DNA of 64,000 nt from an uncultured Pelagibacteraceae bacterium (GTDB lineage Bacteria > Pseudomonadota > Alphaproteobacteria > Pelagibacterales > Pelagibacteraceae): the NCBI GenBank assembly GCA_902543535.1, contig CACBYG010000005.1, positions 1-64,000 on the forward strand, written 5' to 3'. The position numbers and the translations under genes were made by a program. Numbering within the stretch: position 1 is the stretch's first letter; each line of letters starts with the position of its first letter. The notes under the pieces are model-generated. The model did no database searches and was not told the DNA's origin. It worked only from the letters and a program-made list of their open reading frames with translations. Shown here piece by piece: positions 21,354 through 25,596 of this stretch.

Positions 21354-21917
21354 ATGAAAAAATTATATTTATTTATTTTTATATTACTTTCATTAGAAAC
21401 TTTTAGTTCTGCTAATGAAAATTTATCTTCAGTTGATAATTTATTTCATATTGATCAAATGAATTCCCACAATGAAAAATTTGCTTTATACTTTAAAACA
21501 CGTGAAAAGGCTATTTTGGCTAAGGGAGAAGATAGTAATTATATAAATGATTACCCTAAAGATCTTTATATTTATAATTATAAAACTAAAAGTTCTTTAC
21601 CTTTGATATCTCACGAATGGTTTCCAAGAAAAGCTAAATATTTTTTACAAGAATATGATTTTCCAGTTTTTCCAGATGATTTTGCTTATTATTTATTAAA
21701 AGATAATAAAACACTTGTTATGATTAGTGCTGTCAAAAGTTTAAGAGCAAACTTTAAATTTGATATTATAGAAAAGAAATTAGAAATTTATCCAATTAAT
21801 GGAAAATTTGATTTTATTATTTCTTCAATTGCAAAAGGCTGTGATCATTATGATTTTAAGGATAATTATAAATGTACTTTTTACAAACCTTTAATCTCAA
21901 GTACCTTAATTAATTAA
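21354..21917 (+). CDS. Hypothetical secreted protein
   Basis: Signal-peptide-like N-terminus MKKLYLFIFILLSLETFSSANE; no recognised family. Confidence 0.55.
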   Translation: MKKLYLFIFILLSLETFSSANENLSSVDNLFHIDQMNSHNEKFALYFKTREKAILAKGEDSNYINDYPKDLYIYNYKTKSSLPLISHEWFPRKAKYFLQEYDFPVFPDDFAYYLLKDNKTLVMISAVKSLRANFKFDIIEKKLEIYPINGKFDFIISSIAKGCDHYDFKDNYKCTFYKPLISSTLIN

Positions 21918-22827
21918 TTTGTGTAAAAGCTTCTGCAAACTTTTCTGCCTCAAAAATCTGTAAATCATCTTCTTTTTCTCCTAAACCAAGAGCAATAATT
22001 GGTAGCTTATATTTTTTAGCAACTGCTAAAAGAATGCCACCTTTCGCCGTTCCATCTAATTTTGTCATTATTAGCCCTGTAATAGAAATAATTTTATTAA
22101 ATTCTTCAACTTGATTAATCACATTTTGTCCAGAGGTAGCGTCTAAAACTAAAATTACATCCTGAGGAGCTTCAGAATCTATTTTCTTTGTTACGTTTGC
22201 AATTTTTTTGTATTCTTCCATTAAATTTTTTTTGTTTTGTAATCTTCCAGCAGTGTCTATCAAAACTTGATCGAATTGATTATTTACCGCTTCTTCTATT
22301 GCTTTATATGCCACTGAAGCCGGATCAGCTCCTTGTGATGACTTAGTAATTGAAACATCTACCTTTTTTGACCAGTTTTCTAATTGTTCAATTGCTGCTG
22401 CTCTAAATGTATCTGATGCAGCAAGCATTACTTTGTTTCCATTACCTTTAAATATTTTGCTAATTTTTCCTATGGTGGTTGTTTTACCAACTCCATTAAC
22501 ACCAGAAATGAGTATTGTGTTAAGTTTTTGTTTTTTTTTAAAAAATTCAAAATTTTCTAAAGGTTTCATTAATTCAATTATATAATTTTTTAAAATAGTA
22601 TTTATCTCATCTGCTGTATCTTTGTTTGGATCAATTTTAGTTTGGGAAACAATTTCTCTAATTTCTGATGCTGCAGCAATCCCAACATCTGATTGAATCA
22701 AATAATCTTCAATTTTATCTAATGTTTTGTCATCTATTTCTTTTTTAATGACAATATTTTTTAACCCTGAACTAAATGCTGACGCACTTTTCTTAAAACC
22801 AGATTTAAATTTATCAAAAATTCCCAT
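21910..22827 (-). CDS. ftsY: Signal recognition particle receptor FtsY
   Basis: GVNGVGKTTTIGKISK, DTFRAAAIEQL, DTAGRLQNKKNLMEE, TKLDGTAKGG motifs. Confidence 0.95.
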   Translation of the reverse strand: MGIFDKFKSGFKKSASAFSSGLKNIVIKKEIDDKTLDKIEDYLIQSDVGIAAASEIREIVSQTKIDPNKDTADEINTILKNYIIELMKPLENFEFFKKKQKLNTILISGVNGVGKTTTIGKISKIFKGNGNKVMLAASDTFRAAAIEQLENWSKKVDVSITKSSQGADPASVAYKAIEEAVNNQFDQVLIDTAGRLQNKKNLMEEYKKIANVTKKIDSEAPQDVILVLDATSGQNVINQVEEFNKIISITGLIMTKLDGTAKGGILLAVAKKYKLPIIALGLGEKEDDLQIFEAEKFAEAFTQIN

Positions 22828-23651
22828 TAAATTTTTATATTAATTTCTTTAATATCAGAAACGGGTCCTTTCATGTGAATACTGTTATTTTCATCAATAA
22901 ATATTGACAACTTACCAGTAGAAAACTCTATATCCACCTTGTTACCTGAAAGTCCATTTCTTATTGCAGCAAAAGCAGTAGCGCAAGCTGCTGTACCACA
23001 AGCTTTAGTAAGACCTGCCCCTCTTTCCCATACTTTAACTTTAATTAATTCCTTATTAATGACTGTTGCTAAAGTGACATTGCATTTTTCTGGAAACAAA
23101 GGATGGTTTTCAATTTCTGGTCCGATTTTTTTTATTTCAAAATTTTCGTTATTATCAACAAAAAAAATGACATGCGGGTTCCCAACATTTACTGCTGTAC
23201 CACCAGTATGATTATTATTATTTAGATCAGTTATTTTTATATTAAGGTTATTGGTATCGAATTGTTCAGAAAGTGGAATTTCATTCCACTCTGTTCTACC
23301 TTTCCCAATCTCCGTAGAAACTAGTTTTTCGCCCAATATCTCAGATTTTAAATCTCCAGATTGTGTAGTTAAGGTAACTAATGATTTATTGTTTTCTTTA
23401 GATAACAAGTCTGCAACACATCTTGTTCCATTTCCACATGCTCCAGAAGTTCCACCATCAGAATTGTAAAATTCTAGAGATGCATCAGATCTATCATTTT
23501 TATTTATTAATATTAATTGATCACAACCTATAAATTCTCTATCGCAAATTTTAATAATTTGCTCTTTGCTCAAATTAGTAATTTTTTGCCTATTATCTAT
23601 AATGACAAAATCATTACCTAAACCATCCATTTTAAACGCTTTGATATCCAT
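22827..23651 (-). CDS. dapF: Diaminopimelate epimerase
   Basis: MDGLGNDFVIID, SGACGNGTRCVA, KACGTAACATA motifs. Confidence 0.95.
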   Translation of the reverse strand: MDIKAFKMDGLGNDFVIIDNRQKITNLSKEQIIKICDREFIGCDQLILINKNDRSDASLEFYNSDGGTSGACGNGTRCVADLLSKENNKSLVTLTTQSGDLKSEILGEKLVSTEIGKGRTEWNEIPLSEQFDTNNLNIKITDLNNNNHTGGTAVNVGNPHVIFFVDNNENFEIKKIGPEIENHPLFPEKCNVTLATVINKELIKVKVWERGAGLTKACGTAACATAFAAIRNGLSGNKVDIEFSTGKLSIFIDENNSIHMKGPVSDIKEINIKI

Positions 23652-23689
23652 ATATAGATATTTAACTTATTTATTGACTTTTTGAACCT

Positions 23690-23800
23690 CTATTATAGGT
23701 TGTTGCCGTTTCCGCAAAAACATTAAATTTGCGGTGTCTTTGGAAACAAAGAGATCGACACTAGTCAGCGAGGCTTCGCCCACTAGTGCAATTACTGCTG
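23690..23800 (+). ncRNA. Structured ffh leader RNA (likely the ffh motif described in Candidatus Pelagibacter ubique)
   Basis: Three hairpins before ffh: CCGCAAA/TTTGCGG (23712-23734), TCTTTG-GAAA-CAAAGA (23737-23752), CACTAGT..GCGA-GGCT-TCGC..ACTAGTG (23759-23788); locally elevated GC. Confidence 0.75.
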
Positions 23801-23809
23801 TGTGAAAAT

Positions 23810-25168
23810 ATGTTTGAAAATTTAACAAATAAATTTGAAGAAATCTTTTCTTCTTTAAAAAAATCACCTTCACTTGATGAAGCTCAAGTTGATGAAGGTT
23901 TAAGAGGAATTAGGCAAGCTCTTCTAGAAGCTGATGTTTCTCTGGAGGTTGCTAAAGATTTCATTGAAAAAGTTAAGCCAAAAGCTTTAGGCCAAGAGAT
24001 TATTAGATCAACTTCACCAGGTGATATGGTTGTCAAAATTGTCTACGACGAACTTGTAAGTTTGTTGGGAGAGGCTAATAGCGATATAAATCTTAATGCG
24101 GTACCACCTGTCCCAATGATGTTGGTAGGACTTCAAGGTTCAGGTAAAACAACAACAACAGCAAAACTTGCCAAATATTTAGAGAGTAACAAAAAGAAAA
24201 AAGTAATGATGGTGAGTTTAGATATTTATAGACCAGCAGCTCAAGAGCAACTTAGATCTTTGGGGGAACAGAATAATATTTTAACCTTACCAATTGTTGA
24301 AGGGCAGCAACCAGCAGATATTTGTAGAAGAGCAATTGGTGCTGCTAATTTAAATGGTGCTGAAATAATTCTTTTTGATACTGCTGGAAGAACTCAAATT
24401 GACTTACAGATGATGAGTGAGATTAAACAAATTGAAGGTGTAATTAATCCAACAGAAACATTCTTAGTAGCAGATTCTTTAACAGGTCAAGTTGCAGCAT
24501 CAGTCGCAAAGGAGTTTAAAAACACAGTTAATCTATCAGGAATTATTTTAACTAGAGCTGATGGTGATGCAAGAGGTGGTGCTGCGGTCAGTATGAAATA
24601 TGTTTCAAATGTCCCAATTAAATTTTTAGGAATAGGTGAAAAAATTGATAATCTTGAAGTATTTCATCCAGACAGAATAGCTAACAGAATTCTTGGGATG
24701 GGAGACATAGTATCTCTTGTTGAAAAAGCTGCTCAAGATCTTGGTGAAGAAAATATAAAAAAAGCAGAAGAAAATTTAAAAAAAGGTCAGTTTTCAATGC
24801 AAGATTATTTGGCTCAACTAAGACAAATGAAAAAAATGGGAGGCATCGAAGGAATAATGTCATTTATGCCAGGAGTTTCAAAAATTAAATCTCAAATGGA
24901 CTCAGCCGGAATTGATGAAAGTATTATTACTACAAATGAAGCTATTATTTTGTCTATGACAAAAAAAGAGAGAGAGAACCCAAAAATAATTGATGGTTCT
25001 AGAAAAAAAAGAATTGCTAATGGCTCTGGTACCAATCCAGCCACTATCAATAAATTGTTAAAACAATTTAAAATGATGTCTGAGATGATGAAAAAGATGT
25101 CTAAAGGAAATATGAAGGGTATGTCTGATAAAGGAATACCACCAGAGCTATTTAACCAATTAAAATAA
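23810..25168 (+). CDS. ffh: Signal recognition particle protein Ffh
   Basis: ATG at 23810; [30 protein letters not shown]-domain [13 protein letters not shown] and [16 protein letters not shown]. Confidence 0.95.
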
Positions 25169-25182
25169 TAAAAGGAGAAGAT

Positions 25183-25596
25183 ATGTTAAAACTAAGATTG
25201 TCAAGAGGAGGAACAAAAAAACGTCCAGTTTATAAAGTTGTTGTAGCTGATAGCCGTTTTGCAAGAGATGGAAGATTTATAGAGAAGGTTGGATTTTTTA
25301 ATCCCCTTTTACCCAAAGATAAAAAAGAAAGAGTAGGTCTTGAGGCTGAAAGAATTAAATATTGGCTCGGGCAAGGAGCTAAACCAACAACTAGAGTTGC
25401 AAGAATATTGGGAGAAAATGAATTAGTGCCAATGCCTGTAAATGGTAATAACCCCAATAAAGCTATTCCAAAAAAAGAAAGAAATAAAAAAGAGGAAGGT
25501 AAAACTGAAGCTCCTAAAGCAGACGCAGCACCAGCAGCAGAAGCCCCAAAGGAAGAGGCTCCAAAGGAAGAGGCTCCAAAGGAAGAAAAAAAATAG
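25183..25596 (+). CDS. rpsP: 30S ribosomal protein S16 with low-complexity acidic C-terminal extension
   Basis: [26 protein letters not shown]-term [18 protein letters not shown]. Confidence 0.95.
25546..25590 (+). repeat. 15-bp tandem repeat CCAAAGGAAGAGGCT (2 full copies plus a partial) encoding PKEEA
   Basis: Direct reading at 25546-25560, 25561-25575, partial from 25576. Confidence 0.9.

Follow-up and report, generated by a model that had tools for sequence, protein, structure and literature searches.

The gene for the signal recognition particle (SRP) protein Ffh is preceded in SAR11 bacteria by an RNA leader of three hairpins, all of which covary, and the last of these hairpins is conserved class-wide in the Alphaproteobacteria, including many families that are missed by the Rfam model of the ffh motif (RF01793). 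Both observations are new with respect to the published motif and show that the current Rfam model covers the RNA and its distribution only in part. Little is known about how bacteria adjust the amount of Ffh, and here a leader on this essential gene is conserved from streamlined marine SAR11 bacteria to rhizobia.

The analyzed window is a stretch of 64,000 nt from an uncultured Pelagibacteraceae bacterium. The genes for Ffh and for its partner FtsY, the SRP receptor, flank the spacer that holds the leader and belong to the divergent clusters dapF-ftsY and ffh-rpsP-trmD-rplS-leuCD. On the minus strand lie ftsY (positions 21910 to 22827) and dapF (22827 to 23651). The ffh open reading frame (23810 to 25168, ATG at 23810) follows the leader on the plus strand, and rpsP (S16; 25183 to 25596), trmD, rplS (L19; 26299 to 26868), leuC, and leuD come after it. 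The gene names were taken from sequence reading and cross-genome matches. Both S16 and L19 terminate in acidic repeats here, and many SAR11 contigs stop about 1.65 kb 3′ of the motif, near this acidic-repeat stretch.

The three hairpins, termed P0, P1, and P2, occupy positions 23712 to 23788 of the plus strand. P0 pairs CCGCAAA (23712 to 23718) with TTTGCGG (23728 to 23734), and P1 pairs TCTTTG (23737 to 23742) with CAAAGA (23747 to 23752) around a GAAA loop (23743 to 23746). P2 is composed of a 7-bp outer stem (CACTAGT, 23759 to 23765, with ACTAGTG, 23782 to 23788), an internal loop of CA (23766 to 23767) opposite CC (23780 to 23781), which forms a C·C mismatch plus A·C, and a 4-bp inner stem (GCGA, 23768 to 23771, with TCGC, 23776 to 23779) capped by GGCT (23772 to 23775). 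An earlier reading of this DNA, made from the sequence only, had proposed these consecutive hairpins with the last stem about 20 nt before the ffh ATG; all arms were found in place, and the distance is 21 nt. The fold of positions 23690 to 23815 had a z-score of −2.2, and only 3 out of 200 shuffled sequences were equally stable. In an alignment of 49 distinct SAR11 leaders (A1), 99.7% of the 1,168 cells of the three hairpins were paired and 10 pairs showed two-sided changes, the latter amounting to 65 cells compared to 14.6 in shuffles. Slid versions of the structure paired in only 37 to 48% of the cells, and RNAalifold returned the same three hairpins from the 49 leaders when no structure was supplied. 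P0 was paired in 98.8% of its cells, with two-sided changes in two pairs; P1 was paired throughout (n = 49), and all six of its pairs covaried. Since covariation supports every stem, the lack of covariation across SAR11 that the sequence-only reading had named as evidence against itself was not what we found. Its GAAA tetraloop on P1 is present in the window, but a GNRA loop occurs in only 34 of the 49 SAR11 sequences, which rules out the cap as a conserved docking element. A stem closing the 5′ end onto the tail, hinted at by one leader (L002) and by the single-sequence fold, was absent from both the RNAalifold structure and an unbiased scan and was discarded. A second group of 18 loci, probably Rhodobacterales, has the same P0 in 15 and the same yGGTy...GATCGC frame in all 18. 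The 52 nt before P2 fold more stably than their shuffled versions, with a mean z-score of −2.65 in SAR11 and −1.31 elsewhere (controls, −0.43 and −0.15, respectively).

The locus is a member of the ffh motif family, as the sequence-only reading had suspected. The RF01793 covariance model covered positions 23744 to 23797 of the plus strand over its full length with 54.5 bits (cutoff, 35) and matched the genome once; P2 is, as this family demands, a bulged hairpin with a conserved CC on its 3′ side and a covarying stem. Rfam lists the family under the type sRNA gene. Meyer et al. (2009, PMC2704228) described the motif as a single bulged hairpin 5′ of ffh that is present in several alphaproteobacterial orders and in Candidatus Pelagibacter ubique but, by their account, missing from Rhodospirillales, Caulobacterales, and other Rickettsiales. 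The published motif and the leader share P2, the place 5′ of ffh, the CC in the bulge, and the occurrence in SAR11, whereas our reading adds P0 and P1, reinterprets the bulge as a mismatch, and extends the range of families. We inspected the region 5′ of ffh in 18 alphaproteobacterial genomes without an RF01793 match, and most were found to have a diverged P2. When aligned by structure, the "2 × 2 internal loop" of the sequence-only reading, correctly placed as such, resolved into a pyrimidine·C (Y·C) mismatch, which 68 of the 69 distinct cores retain, plus a neighboring position that is mostly A·C and elsewhere G-C, C-G, A-U, U-A, or G-U.

A class-wide P2 model (R1) was built from an alignment of 53 sequences (A3), in which no stem cell was unpaired and two-sided changes occurred in 9 of 11 stem pairs. 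P2 positions in RF01793-matching loci had been refined with a pairing score favoring the known consensus and hairpins in the other loci had been anchored by hand; the genome-wide search with R1 is the more independent check. It covered 133 genomes, nearly each from a different alphaproteobacterial family, and the matches were compared with the positions of ffh. A match on the ffh strand directly 5′ of ffh was present in 74 of the 115 genomes having ffh, while RF01793 scored above its cutoff in 28 of the 133. Across whole genomes, strong R1 matches away from ffh were rare. In a phylum-wide sample, strong matches were seen in 32 of 36 alphaproteobacteria, compared to weak matches in 2 of about 104 other genomes. 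About half of 20 misses inspected (out of 41) carried, as judged by eye, a further diverged P2-like hairpin. A search for viral carriage brought one motif pattern to two viral contigs, neither of which matched ffh or its operon genes, and the idea was dropped.

The direction of the RNA could be read from the pairs themselves. The P2 cells contained 21 G-U and no A-C combinations, and the basal helix of P1 contained 52 and none; a structure on the other strand would reverse these counts, and the leader RNA thus belongs to ffh, as originally assigned, and not to dapF. An antisense or dapF-leader reading was ruled out by this count together with the promoter direction. A −35-like box, TTGACT, lies at positions 23674 to 23679 of the plus strand, and its TTGAC core was found 5′ of P2 in all 56 SAR11 loci and in 59 of 61 other alphaproteobacterial loci (7.6 and 5.7 expected from shuffles), mostly 84 to 98 nt before P2. 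TATAGG (23694 to 23699, plus strand) is a possible −10 box, judged by its position relative to TTGACT and its conservation in SAR11; the short spacing makes this assignment uncertain. A strict consensus scan found no promoter. With the usual promoter spacing, transcription would start about 50 to 60 nt before P2, and the RNA from there through the tail would be about 100 nt long.

The segment that follows P2 (23789 to 23803, plus strand) contains a conserved U-G step (T at 23799, G at 23800). Of 124 distinct tails, 114 have TG at either +11/+12 or +12/+13 relative to P2. Outside SAR11, no tail position is better conserved than the T at +11 (73 of 75), and a G comes after it, at +12 or +13. The tails are T-rich at +3 to +5. 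A simple terminator rule was satisfied by only 45 of the 124. A Rhizobium tail (L200) qualifies as an intrinsic terminator, and a terminator scan of the window did not classify its own tail, CAATTACTGCTGTGTG, as a terminator. At hairpin-stabilized pauses, the hairpin is separated from the pause site by 10 to 12 nt. Pause hairpins sit in the exit channel of RNA polymerase (PMC6336406). The ffh leader resembles a his-type pause in having a hairpin with U-G 11 to 13 nt further on; it differs in that no leader peptide was identified here and that G at −10/−11, part of the pause consensus, occurs in only 67 of 114 tails (59%).

A second pairing arrangement was detected upstream of P2. When all helices of four or five pairs were scanned without bias in SAR11, the only further helix with notable covariation was a basal extension of P1, CGGT (23732 to 23735) with ATCG (23754 to 23757, plus strand). 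It was paired in 99.5% of the cells, and two-sided changes numbered 11 in one of its pairs. Since the extension takes up the final bases of P0's 3′ arm, P0 and the extended P1 are mutually exclusive. The column they share covaries with both of its partners: A1 columns 34, 55, and 80 vary jointly, being G-C-G in 37 of the 49 leaders, A-U-A in 11, and G-U-U in 1, and one leader (L111) has the A-U-A set, unlike its close relatives. The two states differ by 0.6 kcal/mol in the window and by no more than 2 kcal/mol in 38 of the 49 SAR11 leaders. A helix that would open P2, GTGTC/GACAC, was 88.6% paired with zero two-sided changes and was rejected; neither the helix test nor the unbiased scan revealed a conserved antiterminator pairing with P2 in SAR11.

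Tentatively, and at somewhat less than an even chance, we favor the explanation that the leader works as a co-transcriptional pause or attenuation module that gates ffh and releases an RNA of about 100 nt. The spacer would encode the 5′ leader of the ffh transcript, with transcription starting just 5′ of P0, as the promoter box suggests, and the RNA folding into P0, P1, and P2. P2 and its tail would then form a site, some 100 nt from the transcript start, at which transcription pauses or partly stops; part of the rounds would release the small RNA, and the remainder would run on into ffh and so influence the level of Ffh. The likeliest point for signal input would be the switch between P0 and the P1 base, with Ffh, SRP, or a ribosomal protein encoded in this operon as candidate signals, or else no more than the kinetics of folding. 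The small RNA could equally be explained by RNase cleavage. We regard as doubtful the more far-reaching proposal of an ancestral alphaproteobacterial two-state RNA, in which P0 or the extended P1, followed by the pause or stop at P2, would set the number of polymerases that reach ffh and release the small RNA; if it were true, the supply of the SRP protein would be set during transcription throughout the class. Given the defined mismatch, the fixed tail spacing, and the alternative pairing, a small set of mutants in a genetically tractable relative would be enough to test how the level of Ffh is set.

Ribosome occlusion is less favored than a process during transcription, since P2 lies at varying distances from ffh while the promoter-to-P2 and P2-to-tail distances are kept. 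The sequence-only reading had seen in the closeness of the last stem to the ATG a plausible place to control translation, and in SAR11, where P2 ends 21 to 31 nt before the ATG and the ribosome is expected to cover part of the tail, the leader might hide or present the ribosome binding site. This does not hold in general, since the motif ends 2 to 105 nt (median, 27) before ffh in the 74 genomes with an R1 match and up to about 440 nt before it elsewhere (L070), and since a small open reading frame intervenes in some genomes. RNAalifold and the unbiased scan also showed no conserved pairing between leader and start region in SAR11, and we consider control of ffh translation quite unlikely. According to Meyer et al., regulation of ffh had not been described before at either the transcriptional or the translational level (PMC2704228). 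Repression by Ffh or SRP binding to the leader would agree with the frequent autoregulation of RNA-binding proteins and with the gene order, as ffh lay 3′ of the motif in every locus retrieved and strong matches were attached to hardly anything else. No known resemblance of the motif to SRP RNA helix 8, the Ffh-bound site, was reported, however (Meyer et al. 2009, PMC2704228), and we found no match in sequence or structure between this helix of the 4.5S RNA and the leader beyond their common connection to Ffh. Moreover, the position next to the mismatch varies freely between lineages, and the 133 genomes yielded no second consistent R1 match fit to be SRP RNA or rRNA. Autoregulation by Ffh is unlikely in our estimation. 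SRP RNA mimicry found no support, given that RF00169 (small bacterial SRP RNA) did not match at the locus and that strong R1 matches are, with few exceptions, confined to ffh leaders.

The missing rRNA mimic likewise weakens a ribosomal protein leader with S16 or L19 of the same operon as its ligand. Such leaders are known from the same species (Meyer et al., PMC2704228), and each of the 20 extended loci, with or without an Rfam match, had rpsP 3′ of ffh, often together with trmD and rplS. In many genomes, however, rpsP lies hundreds of bases past ffh while the leader stays with ffh, and we think this reading very unlikely. Similarly little credence is given to a mainly stand-alone sRNA gene, acting in trans or processed, from which read-through into ffh would be incidental. 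It would accord with the Rfam type and with a discrete RNA of <200 nt in Sinorhizobium meliloti (sm5, PMC2573895), but across the class little sequence is conserved beyond P2 and the tail, the loops vary, and the linkage of strong matches to ffh is nearly absolute.

The RNA sm5 is encoded in the dapF/ffh spacer, in the orientation of ffh, with a predicted sigma-70 promoter and Rho-independent terminator, has a predicted length of 108 to 258 nt, and was enriched in RNA of <200 nt (PMC2573895). It resembles the ffh leader in its order and strand (dapF<, sm5>, ffh>), its predicted promoter and terminator, and, at the shorter estimate, its length of about 108 nt; by position, strand, and length, sm5 may be the same element, although the accounts of sm5 consulted make no connection to the ffh motif. 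The ffh motif was likewise detected among metatranscriptomic small RNAs (PMC2704228), and the ffh leader is listed among the sRNAs of Bartonella bacilliformis (PMC7717549).

Further observations concern SRP RNA and the neighborhood of the motif. In several genomes of the same genus, RF00169 reached only 34 to 37 bits (cutoff, 40), and it found nothing in the window genome, which is 80% complete; these low or absent scores suggest that the SRP RNA has diverged or that a contig is missing. A small open reading frame (CPWSGKPI...FCNPDCRDKF) between motif and ffh in L029, present also in L025, L064, L089, and L092 in another frame, is weakly YHS-like (Pfam E value, 0.017, below cutoff). In several genomes of one family (L123, L129, L131, and L137), an apparent Ala-like tRNA gene (GGGGCCTTAGCTCAGCTGGGAGAGCG...) lies directly 5′ of the ffh leader.
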